From a virus: a stretch of DNA of 23,847 bases. This document shows positions 1 through 16,836 of this stretch, piece by piece (position 1 is the stretch's first letter; each line of letters opens with the position of its first letter). The DNA lies in IMG/VR virus record IMGVR_UViG_3300030419_005446, positions 1 to 23,847 of that record; one strand, 5' to 3'. The position numbers and the translations under genes are program-made. The notes below the pieces were generated by a model, which was given only the letters and a program-made list of their open reading frames with translations, ran no database searches and was not told the origin of the DNA.

Positions 1-385
1 GGTAGGTGGTGCGGGAAAAGCCCCACCAGCGAACGCCCTTGTCTTCCTCGCCACGAACGACGATGGGGGCGAAGATACGCATCTTAGGCCAGAAGCGTTT
101 TGCTGCTTCCTTAGAACCATCAGTGCCCTCGTTCCAAAGGCGGGTTCCCCACTCTGCGATGGGATCAGCATCACCGTTGGTCCGTGGACTGAGAACGGTG
201 GTCTTTCCTTCTGCGCCCATACCATAGTGGTAGTACGCTTCAAAGAAGGGGTCGCCGTCTGGCGGACAAACCAAACGAATTTGGTGCGTGCCTTCATCAG
301 GCTTCCAAAAGTTATCAGAGGCATCACCGCCTCGGTTGGTAAGAGCGGCGTGCTTTTGCCGCATTTTATCAAGATCAATACCCAT
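1..385 (-). CDS. gp32-like single-stranded DNA-binding protein (N-terminal part, cut by window edge)
   Basis: The ATG is at 385 with a strong AAAGGAG Shine-Dalgarno site just upstream; the frame stays open to base 1, giving about 128 residues. The protein resembles the T4 gp32 type that coats single-stranded DNA in replication, recombination and repair. The start MGIDLDKMRQK, the run WKPDEGTHQIRLVCPPDGD (residues 27-45), YYHYGMG (51-57) and a later Trp/Phe-rich stretch match the usual gp32 layout: basic N-terminus, then OB-fold core. In T4 the core holds a zinc through one His and three Cys. Here His53 is plausible, but the region that should carry the Cys residues (about 64-80) has none, so zinc binding is probably lost. 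It follows the Hsp20 terminator, so it should have its own promoter. The C-terminal acidic tail lies outside the window. Confidence 0.8.
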   Translation of the reverse strand, partial: MGIDLDKMRQKHAALTNRGGDASDNFWKPDEGTHQIRLVCPPDGDPFFEAYYHYGMGAEGKTTVLSPRTNGDADPIAEWGTRLWNEGTDGSKEAAKRFWPKMRIFAPIVVRGEEDKGVRWWGFSRTTY

Positions 386-530: not shown

Positions 531-947
531 TTAGTTGATATCAATAATAACAGGCTGGACTTCAGCCTTCCGAGGGATAGTGACTGTCAATAGCCCGTTG
601 TGAAAGTCAGCAGTACTCGCCGTGAGGTCAAGGTTGCTGTCATAGTTCACAAAAGTCTTTTGGAAGCTCCGGCGGGCAATACGTCTATTGCTGTCCCCAT
701 CGCCGTGGGCTTCCGCACGCACAGTTAGACTGCTTTTCTCTGGTTGAATCTCAATGCTAAGATCCTCTTTACTAAAACCTGCGAGAGCGAACTCAAGAGT
801 TGTACTCCCGTCTTCGTTAGAGAAGATGTCAGCCACAGGATAACCCGAGGTTGACTTTCTCGCTAGTGATTGGAAGTCTCCGAACAGTTCATCAAAGATG
901 CTGCGTCCAAGAAGACTAGGTGTGTTGTATCGTACTAAATTGCTCAT
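531..947 (-). CDS. Hsp20-family small heat-shock protein
   Basis: The 138-residue product carries an alpha-crystallin domain, the ATP-independent holdase that keeps unfolding proteins soluble. The domain runs from about residue 36 (YPVADIF) to the end. Hallmarks are an A-G-F-x-x-E-D-L type segment (AGFSKEDLSIEI), the conserved ADFHNGLLTVTIPR near residues 114-127, and a short C-terminal Ile-rich tail (VIIDI) able to dock a neighbouring subunit. A longer frame opens at a TTG (971), but the ATG at 947 has an ideal AGGAGG 7 nt upstream and matches the family's usual length. The gene has its own sigma70-like promoter (1039-1066), a structured leader (955-1026) and its own terminator (481-508), so it is a single-gene unit. 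Related genes are known in marine T4-like phages, where they are thought to aid virion protein folding; that role is inference here. Confidence 0.93.
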   Translation of the reverse strand: MSNLVRYNTPSLLGRSIFDELFGDFQSLARKSTSGYPVADIFSNEDGSTTLEFALAGFSKEDLSIEIQPEKSSLTVRAEAHGDGDSNRRIARRSFQKTFVNYDSNLDLTASTADFHNGLLTVTIPRKAEVQPVIIDIN

Positions 948-954
948 TTTGTTT

Positions 955-1026
955 CCTCCTTTAATAAGCAAGGTTGTTGTGACTCCCGAAGGCAGTCAAG
1001 AATGCAAGCACCGCACAGCCACTTGC
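955..1026 (-). promoter_or_regulatory. putative ROSE-like RNA thermometer in the Hsp20 5' leader
   Basis: The leader between the predicted transcription start (about 1032) and the ATG (947) folds by eye into three hairpins. The first pairs 1026-1020 with 1010-1004 (GCAAGTG with TGCTTGC, two wobble pairs). The second pairs TGACT (998-994) with AGTCA (984-980), plus CC and GG around a UUCG tetraloop and one bulged G. The third pairs CCUUGCUU (973-966) with AAGGAGG (961-955), leaving one bulged G and an AUUA loop, and buries the whole Shine-Dalgarno site. UUGCU facing AGGA with a bulged G is the signature of ROSE elements, which control small heat-shock genes in rhizobia and enterobacteria. The temperature response is inferred. 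Confidence 0.6.
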
Positions 1027-1133: not shown

Positions 1134-1562
1134 TCATTCACTTTCTACTTTGTATATTTTTACAACGTCAACTTTGTGAACTTTAAGCTCTTTTCCTGTC
1201 AAAAGCATGATGGAGTTTTCATAGTTTTCCCAATTTAGTTTCAAGTGGCGGCCTGTTTGTCCATTGTTTTCTGAAGCGACAGCCGCATTGAGGGCGTTAA
1301 TCGTGTAAAGAGTGTTAGATGCTTTTTTCCTGTGAACTCTCATAGTAAAAAGGCGGCTATTTAATGGTTTGCCTTTTTCAAGATAAGCATTGTAAGTGAT
1401 TATTTTTCTGTCTGGGTCATCGGGCATGCCCAGAAGAAAAATTAAATTGTTTGTGAGATCGACAGTGGCAGCAATGTGCTCGACTTCGGTCAGTATCCTG
1501 TCCTCATCGCTTGTTGGTATAAATGACGCCAACAGTATCCCACGTTTTTTATCTGAACTCAA
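1134..1562 (-). CDS. hypothetical protein, 142 aa, TTG start
   Basis: I do not recognise the family. The frame starts with TTG at 1562, preceded by AGAGG at a 9-nt spacing; no ATG or GTG is well placed, and the first internal Met is near residue 46, so the TTG is the best start. The product is soluble, with no signal peptide or membrane segment. It has an alternating hydrophobic N-terminal half (GILLASF, LTNNLIFLLGM) that suggests beta strands, a basic middle (RVHRKKAS), a YTINALN helix-like segment, and a strand-rich end (ELKVHKVDVVKIYKVE). The basic middle could bind nucleic acid, but that is a guess. It lies between the FtsZ-like and Hsp20 genes, with a CTATTTATA element 25 nt upstream, so it may have its own transcript. 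About 170 nt separate it from the Hsp20 start. Confidence 0.75.
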   Translation of the reverse strand: MSSDKKRGILLASFIPTSDEDRILTEVEHIAATVDLTNNLIFLLGMPDDPDRKIITYNAYLEKGKPLNSRLFTMRVHRKKASNTLYTINALNAAVASENNGQTGRHLKLNWENYENSIMLLTGKELKVHKVDVVKIYKVESE

Positions 1563-1619: not shown

Positions 1620-2522
1620 TTAGGACTGTATTCTCGGCGAATAAAATGAACAAAGAACGATAATACCATCTAATTCTGTCGAGTGGACCGAAAACCCGGT
1701 ATCGACCTCATTTTTGCCAAATCTTTTAACTTGTGCCTTTATCTTTTGCATTAATTTATTGTCAGTTGCCAGCATTTCATCTGGAATACCAAAGTAAAAA
1801 TGAGCACTCTTTTCATCTTTTATGGGGAAAAGAAATTTTATGTCTATATTTTTGTCAAGCGAGGCCAGTCCATATGTACCAATCCTACAAATTTTTGGGG
1901 GCTGGAGTTTTGTTTCTAGTATAGACCCAGTGTTTTCAAAATAGTTTATCATCGCCGGGATGTAGGAAACAAAATGATAAATACTTTTCTCGTACTGCGA
2001 GATCGGCACATCACCTACCATATCCTCCACCCGAGACCGATCAATAATAAGCATTTTTTCCAGAAGACCGCTGCGTGTATATTCTTGTAACACATTGTAT
2101 ACAATTCTGTCATCTCTTTTTTGGATCACGGAAACAACGTCCTCGTCAGGCCTAATATAGATTACCATTATTTTTGTGTGTTTAATTTTTTCCAACAGGG
2201 ACAGAGTGATTCCGGTCACTGGGTCACCACCTTGTAGTACAAAAATTATATTGTCATCTTTCTTAAACCGCCTACAGAAAAGATCTGCTTCAACGGTGTC
2301 GAAGTTTTTCTCGTATGCCTCAATGTTTTTTTCTGGTTGTACATAAAGACTATTCTTGACGCTGAGATCTGAGCTAATCCTGAAAACTTTATACTCTGGG
2401 TATTGCTTAAACTGGTCCGCTATGCCGCAGCCGACCTTTCCAAGTCCAATAACTTTGTAGTTGTCAGGTGTCCCATCCGCAACTATATCGGACAGACTCT
2501 CTTGATCAATTTCAATACTCAA
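1620..2522 (-). CDS. divergent FtsZ/tubulin-like protein
   Basis: The 300-aa product looks like a remote member of the tubulin/FtsZ superfamily of filament-forming GTPases. YKVIGLGKVGCGIA (22-35) fits the first strand and glycine-rich T1 loop. LQGGDPVTGI (96-105) sits where the GGGTGTG signature belongs but keeps only part of it. Next come a helix, a strand ending in RP (118-125, like the VVTRPF strand of FtsZ), a long charged helix, a strand with LIIDRSRVEDMVGD (158-171, like FtsZ IPNDKLL plus loop) and the helix to about 195. The last 90 residues could be the tubulin C-terminal domain. Start is TTG at 2522, overlapping the polymerase stop by 11 nt, so expression is probably coupled. The degraded signature leaves GTP binding or hydrolysis in doubt. 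Another glycine-rich nucleotide-binding fold (a Rossmann enzyme) is the main alternative. Confidence 0.55.
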   Translation of the reverse strand: MSIEIDQESLSDIVADGTPDNYKVIGLGKVGCGIADQFKQYPEYKVFRISSDLSVKNSLYVQPEKNIEAYEKNFDTVEADLFCRRFKKDDNIIFVLQGGDPVTGITLSLLEKIKHTKIMVIYIRPDEDVVSVIQKRDDRIVYNVLQEYTRSGLLEKMLIIDRSRVEDMVGDVPISQYEKSIYHFVSYIPAMINYFENTGSILETKLQPPKICRIGTYGLASLDKNIDIKFLFPIKDEKSAHFYFGIPDEMLATDNKLMQKIKAQVKRFGKNEVDTGFSVHSTELDGIIVLCSFYSPRIQS

Positions 2523-3714
2523 ACTTCTTAAGACTCCCTAGATTTTTTCCTCTACTAGTATTTACACCAAACTTACCAAATTTTGTCGAACTCATTAGAT
2601 CCCTGATGAGAACAAGCAGATGTTCATCTTGTTTGTCCAAGTCAATTACTATCGAGTCGTGTATTATACAAGAAATGAAAGACCGAGCCGCCCTCTCTTG
2701 TAGTAAGTGATTAATCTTAATAGCTTGTAACAGAGTTAATTCAGCGGTAGTCGATTGGATAATATAATTCAAGGCATGATGAAGGTCTACATCATTGATA
2801 ACTTTCCCTAACGGAGTTAGGACAGTGTTGCCATTCCAGAACTTCTGGATCACCTCTTCTTTGTTGTAAAAGCGTTGGAGCTTTTCGCCTTGAGTGCTTT
2901 GATTTATTTTCTTTGCACCGTAAAGCCAAGCAAAGAAAGCAGTCTTGCTTTCCTCTCTCGTTATCTTTTTGTCAAAAACTTCATCTCTGTGAAAGTCATG
3001 AATATCCACCAACGGCTGTGGCTTTTCTAAGACACCCATCAAAACCCTGGCCTCTGCGCCGTTAAAGTCAAATTCAACAAACTCATCATTAACTGGTTCG
3101 ACGACTGCTCTCATATCTTTTCTTATCGTGAGTATGGGAAAGGATTTTTTGCTGGTCGTGAGCCGCCCGGTGATTGTGCCGAATTGGTTATAAGAAATAT
3201 ATTGACTTGTGCCGAATTGCCTATTGAGCGCCTTCTCATAAGATTTTACTTTTCTATAATTAATGTTCAGACGTCTATTCGATATCTCCTCTAGCATTTT
3301 ACATACCTTCAGAAGGAATTCGTATCGACGAGGGCGCTTATAATTTTTAATGACATGCTCAGTAATACTATTCTTAATTCGGCAAAAGTCCATCAGAAAT
3401 CTCTGCGGAACTAAGTCATAAATGCAGTTCTCGGTCCTGTCCACTTTTGACAGACTTAGCGATCTCTGAAACGCTTGTATCTTTTGGGACACGTCCTGCC
3501 AGTCATCCTGCAAATATTCCGGTATAGCCGACTCCACCGGGGTGCCCTGCAAGTACAAATTAGCATACTCTATATTTGTCAGGTCTTTCAGGTAGGTGCA
3601 GTATTTCCAAGTGGCTGTCAGTTCCTCTGGGAACAGGTCCGGATCAAAAACCAACTTGTCATCACAGTAAATACCTACACACTCTGACTTATCGTCCAAA
3701 GTTTGAAATAGCAT
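2512..3714 (-). CDS. family A DNA polymerase, polymerase domain only
   Basis: The 400-aa product holds the palm, fingers and thumb of a Pol I-type polymerase, without the 3'-5' or 5'-3' exonuclease domains seen in full-length enzymes (900 aa or more in E. coli). TGRL at 182-185 is the conserved TGR segment. Motif A is DFNGAEAR from 216, with catalytic Asp216. Motif B keeps Arg253, Lys257, Phe261 and Tyr265-Gly266 at exactly the E. coli spacing. LHHALNYIIQ (311-320) matches the Gln849 region, with His in place of Arg841. Motif C is HDS at 352-354: Asp is kept but the usual Glu is Ser. The ATG at 3714 has an AAAGG site. It lies between a probable virion gene and the FtsZ-like gene, on one likely transcript. 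An exonuclease partner would have to be encoded elsewhere. Confidence 0.92.
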   Translation of the reverse strand: MLFQTLDDKSECVGIYCDDKLVFDPDLFPEELTATWKYCTYLKDLTNIEYANLYLQGTPVESAIPEYLQDDWQDVSQKIQAFQRSLSLSKVDRTENCIYDLVPQRFLMDFCRIKNSITEHVIKNYKRPRRYEFLLKVCKMLEEISNRRLNINYRKVKSYEKALNRQFGTSQYISYNQFGTITGRLTTSKKSFPILTIRKDMRAVVEPVNDEFVEFDFNGAEARVLMGVLEKPQPLVDIHDFHRDEVFDKKITREESKTAFFAWLYGAKKINQSTQGEKLQRFYNKEEVIQKFWNGNTVLTPLGKVINDVDLHHALNYIIQSTTAELTLLQAIKINHLLQERAARSFISCIIHDSIVIDLDKQDEHLLVLIRDLMSSTKFGKFGVNTSRGKNLGSLKKFEY

Positions 3715-3726
3715 CTCTACCTTTCG

Positions 3727-5178
3727 CTAATACTTATTTATATCGCCTACTGTGTCAATTGTTAAGGCCTTGGTTGTTACTGGACCTAGAACATCTTCTT
3801 GTAAGTATTTTAGTGCCAATAAGTATTTCTTGTCTGTGTTGCCAGCGATAAAATTGTAAACATCGATTACGTCTTTAAAGTTTTTCTTGACGACACGGTG
3901 GTGTGTCTTCAGCTTTCTTTCAGTTCTTCGCAAAAGATAATAGCACTTGAGATTCCATTTGTCCCCGTAAGATCCGTTAGCTCTAAACTCCTCAAAAGTT
4001 ATTATCTGCCTACGAATAAGCTCGCTGCGAGCCCTTAAGCAAATCCCGGTTTTATCAGGAGTATATATGCTTACGATTGGCTGCCTATTAACCAGGGCGT
4101 TATAAAAATCCAAGAAGTAAACCTTGACAATATCCATATCTGTTCTCCAACACTCAACATGAGCGGTGGCGAAAAACTTAGTAAATATTTCATTTGCATC
4201 TTGAGCATTTCGCAAGTCTGCATATTCGTTATATCCGACAGCGTGACGCTTGACATCCTCCAGGCCAGAAATTTGAGAAAAACCATACGGATCAATGCTT
4301 GGAAAACCTCCCTGTATTATGGGATTATCACAGTCATCAAGATTATTTTCATTGTTGAGGTTAAAATCATCGAGTGGAACACCAACCATATACTCTTTCA
4401 TCACTGCTGACTGTAGGTCGGCAACAAATCTCCACGGGGCGTTCTGGTCTATTCCAAACCCGTACTGCGTGGCCAACGAAGATATTAAATCAAAGTTGGC
4501 ATCTAAAAAATATTTTTGAGATTTTGGGAAGTCGTCATTGTGATCATCTTCACTAATACTAATAACAAGACCACTGTTAAGGGGCGAACAATAAAAACTC
4601 TCCACAAAACCAGACACTGTTATCGGTCCAGTTGTCTTTGTGTATTCCTCGACAAAACTAGTAAACACTCCCAAAAAGGAGTCAACATCAAGTATTTTTT
4701 GATTCTCGCTTGGAAAGGCTCCTAAGTATGTATTTGAAAAAAGCGGGAAGACGGTCTCTGTCATATATTGATGGTACCCAGAGGTAATACTTCTAAAGGC
4801 TTTTTTGGCTGAGATGTCGGCATATGGTCCAGAAGGCTCCATGATACCCTCTTCAACTAACTCCTTTACCTTATCTCCGAGGTCTCTCCAGGCGTCGGCA
4901 ACAAAGTTAATCGCATACAGAGTTTCGTCAGCAGCAGCGTGACGCAAAGGTTTTAAATATTGTTCGTTAACAACTGTTGCATTCCCAACACTGTTTATTT
5001 TGCCAAAAAAAGAATCTTTGCCCCAAAAATTAAACGATCTCTGTGGTCCTATCAGAGGCAAAACAGAATCAACATATTTTCTTCTTTGTTCATGAGCACG
5101 AGCAGCATTCGAGTTAATTTTTGCCACAGAGAAAAGGTATGGCTGATCTACTATAGATGGTTTTGGCGGCTGGGCCAT
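3727..5178 (-). CDS. hypothetical protein, 483 aa, probably virion or baseplate associated
   Basis: I cannot name this family. The ATG at 5178 has a strong AGGGGAGG site and lies one base past the stop of the large hub-like gene, so the two are very likely translated together; this favours a baseplate or other virion role. The next gene, 12 nt downstream, is the DNA polymerase, so a replication link is also possible. The product is soluble, with no signal peptide or membrane helix. It mixes aromatic-rich segments (NFWGKDSFFGK near 50-60), a long helical part (LYAINFVADAWRDLGDKV), a Pro/Asp/Asn-rich middle, and a basic C-terminal quarter (RRTERKLKTHHRVVKK) before a helical end. No catalytic motif stands out. 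It ends the long run of structural genes. Confidence 0.8.
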   Translation of the reverse strand: MAQPPKPSIVDQPYLFSVAKINSNAARAHEQRRKYVDSVLPLIGPQRSFNFWGKDSFFGKINSVGNATVVNEQYLKPLRHAAADETLYAINFVADAWRDLGDKVKELVEEGIMEPSGPYADISAKKAFRSITSGYHQYMTETVFPLFSNTYLGAFPSENQKILDVDSFLGVFTSFVEEYTKTTGPITVSGFVESFYCSPLNSGLVISISEDDHNDDFPKSQKYFLDANFDLISSLATQYGFGIDQNAPWRFVADLQSAVMKEYMVGVPLDDFNLNNENNLDDCDNPIIQGGFPSIDPYGFSQISGLEDVKRHAVGYNEYADLRNAQDANEIFTKFFATAHVECWRTDMDIVKVYFLDFYNALVNRQPIVSIYTPDKTGICLRARSELIRRQIITFEEFRANGSYGDKWNLKCYYLLRRTERKLKTHHRVVKKNFKDVIDVYNFIAGNTDKKYLLALKYLQEDVLGPVTTKALTIDTVGDINKY

Positions 5179-13668: not shown

Positions 13669-16600
13669 TTAGTCCTCAAAACCGGCTCCGCTATTAGTGA
13701 CCACAAAGTCAATAGCGAAGAACTCGACGGCCCGAGTGGGCTTGACAAGCAACTTAGCGTAGATGATGTTTTGATCAATCAAGTCTGGCGTCGTTGTTGT
13801 GTTGTCAAGAACGAGCCTAAACTCTTCGATACCAAATCTTGCCTTAACATCATTGAGGACAACCTCTGCCTGGCGGCGGAAACGATCCCAAGTAACACTA
13901 GAGTTCGGATCAAAAATCAACCTTGAGGCGATAAAAGAGATTTCTCTCTTCAAGTAAATCATCAAGCGTCGGACATTAATACGATCAAGTGCCGAGCGTG
14001 TCTGTTGAAGTGTTTTCTGTCCGAAGACAACAATTCCTTCAGCAGGGAACTTAGCGATTGGATTAATGTTTGCATCATACAAGTTATCACGCTGATCTTG
14101 TGTATACTTTCTTGACACATCAAGGACCGGGATACCAGCAGCACCCTCAGTCAGTCCGCCCCTGGTAAATCCAGCGGGAGCGAACCAAGGACCTTGATTG
14201 TTGTCCGTGGTAGAAAGAACACCCAGAGCAGCCACCGATGGTGGAGCCCAAAGAGTTCTTTGGTTAACGGAATCTCTGATACGCACCCACGGTGCGTAAG
14301 CAGCGCCATAACTGTTATTGAGGTTTCTGTCTCTAAGTGTATCGACAGCCTGCTTCACCGTTGAGGCATTTCTGTTGGCGACACTTTCAGTGTTCTCTGT
14401 GTCTGGTGTATAGATATTATCAATGTCGATAATAGCTAATGCATCAGCACGATCCTCAACAACATCGAGGAGATGTTCAGTCACGTTGTTTTGGATAATT
14501 CCAGGCAATGTGATCACATTATATTGTGCATCTTCTGTGTCAGAAACGATGTTGATGGCTCGGCGCAGCGTATGCAGTTGATAAGATGTTTTCTCATCAT
14601 TTGCCGTGTTAAATCCAGTATTACGGAAAGGATCTTTTTCTTGGACATCGAACCCTTCGTAGCCGCCGTGAAGAACGGTAGTGAATCGATCCAACCCAGC
14701 ATCCAAGGCACCCGAATACGATGCGCTGGCCGCTGTGACGCTTTGAACGTTAGAACCAATATCCTCGCCCTGGCGTGAGCCAGACACGAATTCATATCCT
14801 TCAGCCGCCGAACCGGACACATCATCAAGAGTAAAGTGCCAGGCAATAACCAATGGGTCGTTAACTGCGCCTTTTTGCTGCGGGCTGAACTGCAAGTCAT
14901 GCATAGCAGCAGGGCTAGTCTGAAGTCCTTTGACTCTTCCCTTGATCATATCACGAATCGAGTCATTAAACAGAGTGTCTGTTGCACTTCTACCTGTCCA
15001 AGCACCCCAATATGTGCTCTTGAGATCTTTTGGTGTTCCCCAGTTGCTTTGGATACGCAACGGAACCGAGGGGAAAATCACAGAAGCGGTGAAGGCAGTT
15101 GCACTGCGAGCCGGACCACCGATCGGGTGATTCAACCCACCGAGCATACCTACACCAGCGACGGAGCCACTGTATGAACCAAAGCCACCCAGACCAAAGG
15201 TTGCAGCAGGGCCACCGTCGATCAACGAAGCAGCGGTGCCAGCAGCAGCACTCAGGTCAGTGGAGCGGCCAGCAACAGCAGAGGCCGAAACGCTGACCAT
15301 ACCCTGTGAACCACTCGTGATTGTCACGGAGCGGTAAGTCAAGGGACCAAACACACCGAATGGGAGCATTTCTGGATCAGTAACGCCGCCATCAACATCA
15401 TCATTCATCTCAACACGAATGTAGTTCGATTTGTTGGGGTATTGCCCATATTCTCTGTTTCTTTTCTCTGTTGTGTCGTACTGCATAAACTTATCGCCAA
15501 TCTTTTTGGCAACATAGTTTGGAGATGCAGGATTTAAGTCACAGTTATCATATCTTTCAAGAATGACTGGCTTGTTGTCAGTGTCTGTAAGCTTACGAAC
15601 CAAAACACTAAATGTTCCATACTTCTCGTACTCTCCTCTTGGTGCCTTAATGTCTGCAATAGAGATTTTAATCTCGTTCTGAACCCAATCACCCGGAGTA
15701 AGCGCTTCAAACCTGAACAGCTTTTGTTGGGTCAGCGCATCATATGACGCCGAAGCAGCGCCCTGATTTAGGTCTTGAGAGAAGTAAAACCCTGTCGTGC
15801 TTTTTTGTGCTGCATAGTTAAAATCATTGCCCACCTCTGACGTGTTTTCCTGATTTCTCAAGGGAAGAATGGCAGCGTAGCACTTAGAGTTTCTAAGATC
15901 AACACCGTCTGCATCGTTAGAACCAGTGAGCGAACCAGCTTCATTTTTAGAGCCAGAACCTATAATAACACCGATTGTATTTCGGCGCTGCCCAACAAGA
16001 CTGTATTCAAAGGTTTCACCAAGCCAGTATTTGCCACCTTGGTTTGCAGTAGCAGTGCCATCACGAGTAATGCTGGTATTTGTTATCGTTGGATTTGTGT
16101 TTAGAACTTTACGGATAAAGTTATTTTTATCTGGGTTTAAGCTAACAGTAACTTTCTCTAAGTTAGCAAAAGTTCCGTCCGAACTGATCATCAAATCAAT
16201 GTCGCCATTGGCGTTTGTTTGATACAATTCGCAAGCAGAGGCTGTGAGGTTATTATGATTTTGAGCCACTTCTCCTGAATCGGAAGTACCAATTCGTGTA
16301 CCAGAGAGAAGTATTCGACCCGCTGTCAGATAGAACGTAGCTGCTAGCGCTCCAGAGAGCACCCCGCCGCCATCTTGGTTTGCACTAGCGCCGTTTTGGA
16401 TGCCGCCGGATGGCCACAAGAAAAGACCGTAAGCACCACCCTCAGAAGGGGTGCTACTAATTGTGCCAGCTTTCCAGCCAGCAAGTCCAGTCGAGGATGC
16501 GTCAGGGTCTTGAACACCAACAGTACGCATAAAAGTCAAAGGACTTGAGTTTCTTAACCAGGCCTGGGCAGCATATGCTCCATATGTTGGACCCAGTGTG

Positions 16601-16836
16601 TTTCCATATCTGGAAATATCGCCTGTTTCGTTACCAGGCATCGGCTTGCCAAACACATCAATAAATTCAGAGAACGAACTAACTGTAACCGGCTCCATAG
16701 CCGGTCCTTTTCGTGCTCTACCTATAACCATTGGTCCAACAGATGCTGGTGTCGCAGGCAACTGGCTGTTGTCTATTTCATCAACAAAAACGCCTGGAGA
16801 AATAAATTTAAACTTCTTTGTGGGATCATCCGCCAT
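13669..16836 (-). CDS. tail sheath protein, enlarged (gp18-like)
   Basis: This 1055-aa protein is the contractile tail sheath. The N-terminal SPGVFVDEIDNSQLPATPAS (13-32) is the classic sheath opening. The C-terminal third carries the conserved core: LRRAINIVSD, later IVVFGQKTL, RRLMIYLKREISFIASRLIF and PTRAVEFFAIDFVVTN before GAGFED. T4 gp18 has 659 residues; about 400 extra here lie mainly between residues 90 and 700 in a Gly/Ser/Thr/Asn-rich, strand-forming region, likely surface domains on the sheath exterior. Sheath subunits pack around the tube and shorten on contraction, driving it through the cell envelope. The ATG at 16836 has a strong GAGGAG site. The neighbours, gp15-like upstream and tube downstream, fit. 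A CTATTTATT element lies 63 nt upstream. Confidence 0.93.
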   Translation of the reverse strand: MADDPTKKFKFISPGVFVDEIDNSQLPATPASVGPMVIGRARKGPAMEPVTVSSFSEFIDVFGKPMPGNETGDISRYGNTLGPTYGAYAAQAWLRNSSPLTFMRTVGVQDPDASSTGLAGWKAGTISSTPSEGGAYGLFLWPSGGIQNGASANQDGGGVLSGALAATFYLTAGRILLSGTRIGTSDSGEVAQNHNNLTASACELYQTNANGDIDLMISSDGTFANLEKVTVSLNPDKNNFIRKVLNTNPTITNTSITRDGTATANQGGKYWLGETFEYSLVGQRRNTIGVIIGSGSKNEAGSLTGSNDADGVDLRNSKCYAAILPLRNQENTSEVGNDFNYAAQKSTTGFYFSQDLNQGAASASYDALTQQKLFRFEALTPGDWVQNEIKISIADIKAPRGEYEKYGTFSVLVRKLTDTDNKPVILERYDNCDLNPASPNYVAKKIGDKFMQYDTTEKRNREYGQYPNKSNYIRVEMNDDVDGGVTDPEMLPFGVFGPLTYRSVTITSGSQGMVSVSASAVAGRSTDLSAAAGTAASLIDGGPAATFGLGGFGSYSGSVAGVGMLGGLNHPIGGPARSATAFTASVIFPSVPLRIQSNWGTPKDLKSTYWGAWTGRSATDTLFNDSIRDMIKGRVKGLQTSPAAMHDLQFSPQQKGAVNDPLVIAWHFTLDDVSGSAAEGYEFVSGSRQGEDIGSNVQSVTAASASYSGALDAGLDRFTTVLHGGYEGFDVQEKDPFRNTGFNTANDEKTSYQLHTLRRAINIVSDTEDAQYNVITLPGIIQNNVTEHLLDVVEDRADALAIIDIDNIYTPDTENTESVANRNASTVKQAVDTLRDRNLNNSYGAAYAPWVRIRDSVNQRTLWAPPSVAALGVLSTTDNNQGPWFAPAGFTRGGLTEGAAGIPVLDVSRKYTQDQRDNLYDANINPIAKFPAEGIVVFGQKTLQQTRSALDRINVRRLMIYLKREISFIASRLIFDPNSSVTWDRFRRQAEVVLNDVKARFGIEEFRLVLDNTTTTPDLIDQNIIYAKLLVKPTRAVEFFAIDFVVTNSGAGFED

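Follow-up and report, generated by a model that had tools for sequence, protein, structure and literature searches.

The question raised by this locus is what a protein resembling tubulin would do directly beside a phage DNA polymerase gene. The sequence analysed (the window) is a 23,847-nt stretch of a viral record (IMGVR_UViG_3300030419_005446), in which an open reading frame, whose product is here called Tub, overlaps a gene for a family A DNA polymerase (PolA) by 11 nt. The initial annotation had read this frame as a divergent FtsZ/tubulin-like protein, and both the frame and the overlap are present on the minus strand (Table 1). The loops quoted for this reading were found as well, GLGKVGCGIAD at residues 26–36 and GGDPVTG at residues 98–104, the latter at the place of GGGTGTG in FtsZ.

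Table 1. Features of the tub locus, in window coordinates; residue numbers refer to Tub.
Feature	Position (nt)	Strand	Remarks
gp32-like SSB	1..385	(-)	N-terminal 128 aa, gene cut by window edge; PHROG SSB E 8.6e-8
Hsp20 family small heat-shock protein	531..971	(-)	Pfam HSP20 E 1e-9; phrog_432 E 1.9e-15
g142, function unassigned	1134..1562	(-)	142 aa; directly downstream of Tub
Tub, predicted tubulin/FtsZ-fold protein	1620..2522	(-)	300 aa; TTG start, TAA stop
C-terminal domain	1623..1883	(-)	strands S7–S10 and helix H10, without H8, H9 and post-S10 tail (DSSP)
H7 guanine-side positions E178, Y182	1977..1991	(-)	family majority Y/F178, N182
T6 site D161-R162	2037..2042	(-)	family majority DN; aligned to FtsZ IPNDKLL
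H5 segment YNVLQEYTRSG, residues 142–152	2067..2099	(-)	family NVLQEYARSG; most conserved stretch
Decayed T4 loop GGDPVTG, residues 98–104	2211..2231	(-)	family GxGx[IV][ST]G replaces GGGTG[ST]G
T1-type loop GLGKVGCGIA, residues 26–35	2418..2447	(-)	consensus GLGxxGCxIA; hhalign to FtsZ T1
PolA, family A DNA polymerase	2512..3714	(-)	400 aa; Pfam DNA_pol_A E 1.4e-13
Protein of 483 aa, function unassigned	3727..5178	(-)	directly upstream of PolA; no family match

The tub gene is under strong purifying selection. A search with the protein returned two close relatives with 94% and 80% identity; compared to the nearest one (L002, 94%), pN/pS was 0.027/0.398, corresponding to a dN/dS of approximately 0.05, and towards L003 pN was 0.114 with synonymous sites saturated. 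Given these relatives, the low dN/dS and the at least 596 coding relatives described below, the frame is a genuine gene and not a chance ORF. Most family members start about 20 residues downstream of the TTG codon used here, and residues 1–20 were modelled with low confidence. Since these residues (MSIEID...) are kept in both closest relatives, the TTG start is plausible.

Homologues were collected via two routes. Among 372 relatives of PolA the best 80 were kept, and in nearly all of them the next gene was homologous to tub. A profile scan of IMG/VR with 71 Tub members, for which Tub alone served as query, yielded at least 596 confirmed coding stretches. After removal of sequences more than 90% identical, a working set of 123 Tub sequences was obtained (pairwise identity 39% on average, minimum 20%). 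The family is thus widespread in uncultured T4-like phages, with hundreds of contigs carrying it. No relative was found by tblastn with three members among 50,697 phage records, nor any match in the plasmid collection. With the window protein, neither phmmer against the PDB nor scans of Pfam and PHROGs yielded useful matches, and no convincing score was obtained for Tub from Pfam, PHROGs, NCBIfam or PADLOC; weak TrkA_N matches were seen in 14 of the 123 members. One apparent provirus was rejected. In the WOR-3 MAG CP070664.1, a UvsX-SSB-Tub-PolA island (L163, 2249311–2254350) lies between host genes and is bracketed exactly by gaps of 100 N (2249211–2249310 and 2254351–2254450). Most probably, a viral contig of 5,040 bp was mis-scaffolded here into a MAG called a chromosome, and the island is therefore uninformative on host or domestication.

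Since the 71-member profile matched no tubulin among the PDB sequences, the sequence evidence by itself is weak and the fold assignment rests on a structure model. AlphaFold, supplied with the 123 homologues, predicted Tub with a pLDDT of 93 and a pTM of 0.90, all five models reaching at least 91.7; a model built from only three sequences (pLDDT 46) was dropped. The two-domain tubulin architecture, consisting of GTPase domain, H7 and C-terminal sheet, is present in the predicted model. Foldseek against the PDB returned 376 matches at E ≤ 0.001, of which the best 50 were all FtsZ or TubZ, with 3wgm as the best among those listed (E 7.3e-12). The listed matches run over the full chain (about 310–364 aligned columns), mostly with TM scores of 0.6–0.7 and with 10–15% identity. 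Among viral models, the best match was A0A6J5RW92 (TM 0.77 by query, E 8e-12), with PhuZ-type proteins scoring lower. We consider the tubulin fold and membership in the tubulin superfamily nearly certain, and on the Foldseek result this part of the initial annotation stands.

Profile comparisons bore out the relation to FtsZ for one part of the family only. In hhalign, whose probabilities are single-pair values suited to comparative use only, the 86 sequences with asparagine at both residues 162 and 182 matched FtsZ at 78.6% (E 1.7e-5, 162 columns), and Rossmann controls at 10% and 41% over 32 columns. The other 37, to which the window protein belongs, gave 62–70% with Rossmann profiles and 1.2% with FtsZ. 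Because only the former part of the family matches FtsZ by profile, the window protein is silent in database searches; its clade has lost guanine-site residues and a T4 glycine, hence the fold is barely visible in the sequence. A Rossmann-fold protein of the NAD/KTN type, mistaken for tubulin, would account for the GxGxxG motif, the weak TrkA_N matches and the profile preference of the window's clade. The confident model, however, matches FtsZ over its full length, C-terminal domain included, and the Rossmann match shrinks to a short segment in the majority clade, which prefers FtsZ, so that we regard this alternative as extremely improbable. The kinship to PhuZ suggested initially held at the level of the superfamily and not beyond it: the Tub alignment (A5) gave 9.6% against 11 PhuZ sequences, compared to 93.7% for FtsZ versus PhuZ as positive control, and the folds closest to that of Tub were those of FtsZ, TubZ and A0A6J5RW92. 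Tub is a new, uncharacterised family of the tubulin superfamily, distinct from PhuZ.

The nucleotide-binding parts are conserved to very different degrees. In the T1 loop, G26 and G28 are invariant among the 123 sequences, and G31 and C32 are found in 119 and 117 of them, respectively. The T4 signature GGGTG[ST]G is absent from the window protein and from the family; of its residues, Gly 1, Gly 3, the Ser/Thr and the final Gly persist in most members, the central Thr and Gly having been lost. Residue 100, which corresponds to Gly 3, is mostly Asp or Glu in the window's clade. In H5, Q146 and S151 are invariant, Y148 is present in 120 and R150 in 122 of the 123 sequences. According to the profile alignment, Tub residues 162, 178 and 182 are equivalent to N165, F182 and N186 of E. 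coli FtsZ; we take them to correspond to N206, Y224 and N228 of tubulin. Asparagine at residue 162 occurs in 86 of 123 sequences, always together with N182 and never without it, so that about 70% of the family retains the base-site residues. The window protein lacks the guanine contacts (R162, E178, Y182), and its clade mostly carries R/K162, E178, S/A/Y182 and D/E100. In a FastTree tree, the guanine-site losses fall essentially into one clade of 35 sequences (support 0.66), with the window inside; separate partial losses were seen in L113 and L145.

No conserved T7 acid was found in residues 193–213 of the 123 sequences, the best candidate being residue 199 (acidic in 73). H8 and H9 were not found in the DSSP string of the predicted model, in which H7 (174–197) is followed by S7 (214–220) as the next full strand, and the final strand S10 ends at residue 295 of 300, leaving no C-terminal tail. 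As modelled, Tub is a protein without GTPase machinery, having neither a conserved T7 acid nor H8. Of the T4 and T7 residues that the initial annotation had singled out for checking, some Gly and Ser/Thr positions of T4 are mostly kept; the central Thr and Gly of T4 and the T7 acid are not. Support for the suggested dead GTPase comes from the lack of the T7 acid and of H8 and from the dismantled nucleotide site.

The polymerase encoded next to tub is very probably an active one without exonuclease, as judged from its motifs: TGR and the catalytic residues are kept in all 125 sequences compared (D216, R253, K257, Y265, H352 and D353 invariant), motifs A, B and C were recognised, and no match to a 3'-5' exonuclease domain was obtained for the window PolA. 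Motif C reads HDS or HDA, the usual form being HDE. A single PolA ORF was present in each of 22 viral records, contigs of 150–190 kb among them, and a family B polymerase in none, making PolA the sole DNA polymerase found in them. The polA gene is located right behind tail and baseplate genes. A tail sheath protein encoded in the window (13669–16836) is unusually long (1055 aa) and matches a PHROG sheath profile of 496 positions end to end.

The gene order of the block is PolA, Tub, gp32-like SSB, UvsX and gp41-like helicase. Counted over dereplicated loci with sufficient flank, PolA was encoded upstream of tub within 3 kb and on the same strand in 113 of 113 loci, a count biased for loci found via PolA, while the scan yielding at least 596 stretches used Tub alone. 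The distance was 50 nt or less in 93 and the genes overlapped in 76 of these 113 loci, the overlap counts being approximate because ORF starts were chosen mechanically. The SSB gene followed tub in 86 of 87 loci and uvsX in 62 of 62, and the helicase gene was located within 8 kb in 44 of 47. The window keeps the order of the family, the genes for g142 and Hsp20 being placed between tub and the truncated SSB gene, and has T4-like tail and head genes upstream of the block. In two contigs, 190 and 178 kb long, the full order can be followed from the major capsid protein to the helicase, with PolA-Tub in between. The proposed coupling to the polymerase is therefore real and general, extending beyond the window contig. 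No match to a gp45 clamp was found, and the controls gave none either. A homologue of the 483-aa protein was encoded near tub in 142 of 160 fetched loci; Hsp20 was found there in only 13 of these 160.

Within the window's clade, g142 was encoded in 33 of 34 loci, compared to 0 of the 88 loci outside it, i.e. the clade retaining g142 is the one whose Tub lost the guanine site; this coincidence may come from shared descent and not from function. A syntenic block of tail genes, a PolA-like gene, g142, SSB, UvsX and helicase is found in Microcystis phage Mel-JY01, where g142 directly follows the PolA-like gene, and the Tub profile matched none of the ORFs in 50 kb around this block. Accordingly, an older replication block either gained Tub or lost it, and the wider lineage does not need this protein. 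The PolA-like protein of Mel-JY01 (L293:30398–31624, annotated as hypothetical) was matched by the PolA profile with E 8e-14, but carries what look like degraded motifs (FDYDAFHIKLL as motif A, YDA as motif C).

The loss of the parts for GTP use, together with the adjacent PolA, suggests a role in replication and not in moving filaments. The best reading, to which we give about an even chance, is that Tub is a non-catalytic tubulin-fold component of the phage replication machinery, of which it would have become a fixed part in this phage group. Tub and the polymerase are probably produced from the same message, since their genes overlap. Tub would act as a protein-protein module whose invariant H5 face (NVLQEYARSG) probably binds PolA or another replisome protein, and at the replication focus it might hold the short polymerase in place or arrange it. 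Majority-clade members may use a bound nucleotide as structural cofactor or as switch, whereas Tub of the window's clade would manage without one. This reading is favoured by the predicted fold, the conserved PolA/SSB/UvsX/helicase context, the invariant catalytic residues of PolA and its place as the only DNA polymerase found, the lack of a conserved T7 acid and of H8 in the model, the strongly conserved H5 and the strong purifying selection on a protein that has lost its guanine site, and is opposed by the Mel-JY01 block without detectable Tub. A common gene neighbourhood is no proof of a physical interaction. That Tub is a true replisome subunit, namely a pseudo-GTPase that tethers a replicative family A polymerase lacking an exonuclease or assists its processivity, is a tentative proposal with the balance somewhat against it.

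Three other functions compete with this explanation. A role of Tub in filaments of the PhuZ kind, for the centring or organisation of capsids or of replicating phage DNA, agrees with the predicted fold, with the adjoining polymerase gene and with the base-site Asn residues kept in the majority clade. PhuZ positions DNA in nucleus-forming phages (PMC4244570, PMC10299810). Such a function is nevertheless unlikely for Tub in view of the decayed T4 loop, the absent C-terminal tail, the lack of a profile relation to PhuZ and the missing T7 acid and H8. In polymerising members of the superfamily, one subunit contributes the latter two to complete its neighbour's active site. Tubulin-fold proteins can also form filaments without hydrolysis, so that lost catalysis does not exclude assembly of Tub. 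Chimallin was not matched by tblastn in 12 long contigs, a search run without positive control.

Phage inhibitors of FtsZ are known, and Tub could be an antagonist of host FtsZ, a one-faced mimic of it that, by capping or co-assembly, would prevent division of the infected cell. FtsZ provides the closest solved folds among the listed matches, and a protein with the 'bottom' (T7/H8) missing and the 'top' kept in most members would suit a capper. We consider this quite improbable, because the nucleotide face, the top, is dismantled in the window's clade, and the position of tub is fixed within the replication block, with a neighbourhood that is unchanged though members fall to 20% identity. Still more doubtful is a nucleotide sensor, by which Tub of the majority clade would bind GTP or dGTP and tune the polymerase to nucleotide supply: the paired conservation of N162 and N182, the aromatic residue 178 and the PolA neighbour speak for it, but the window's clade keeps the gene despite the lost site, and the T4 phosphate loop is altered family-wide. 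If the replisome reading is true, a tubulin-superfamily protein would serve DNA synthesis instead of a cytoskeleton, and in one clade it would do so after loss of the nucleotide site. The two clades represent a natural experiment, the same gene in the same place with the same partners, with and without nucleotide site, and permit a direct test of the tubulin fold as a plain interaction module in replication.

Among open-licence papers, no description was found of a tubulin-fold protein encoded in a replication block with PolA; relatives in kind are PhuZ (PMC3678025, PMC4244570, PMC10299810) and the tubulin/FtsZ-like genes of Borgs (PMC12660748). The best viral structural match of Tub, A0A6J5RW92 ('FtsZ Cell division GTPase' of an uncultured Caudovirales phage), is unstudied; it is 452 aa long, compared to 300 aa for Tub, with 14% identity. 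FtsZl1 and FtsZl2 are divergent families of the FtsZ superfamily (Makarova and Koonin 2010, PMC2875224). FtsZl1 resembles Tub in that its T6-H7 parts are not recognisable, whereas both families keep the GGGTG(S/T)G loop and long C-terminal extra regions, neither of which Tub has (PMC2875224). PhuZ is likewise phage-encoded, of the tubulin superfamily and of similar length, with a possible link to replicating DNA in common with Tub, but it keeps the tubulin T4 signature and the catalytic T7 Asp (D198 in RAY) (PMC10299810). The phiKZ phuZ gene is not adjacent to a polymerase gene, unlike tub. PhuZ has a C-terminal tail that is used in filament assembly, whereas the Tub model ends five residues after S10. 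TubZ/RepX of plasmid partition share the fold (4ei7, TM 0.70 by query) and a link to replicon maintenance; TubZ is, however, a polymerising GTPase, and Tub has no match in the plasmid collection. With FtsZ, Tub shares the fold of GTPase and C-terminal domain and the alignable T1, T4, T6 and H7 positions, including, in the family majority, the base-contact Asn residues and the aromatic residue. It differs from FtsZ in the low identity, the replaced T4 signature and the missing T7 acid, H8/H9 and C-terminal tail peptide, and its gene is located in a phage replication block. The tubulin superfamily is known for GTP-driven filaments, whereas the Tub family is fixed in a replication block without a conserved catalytic loop.
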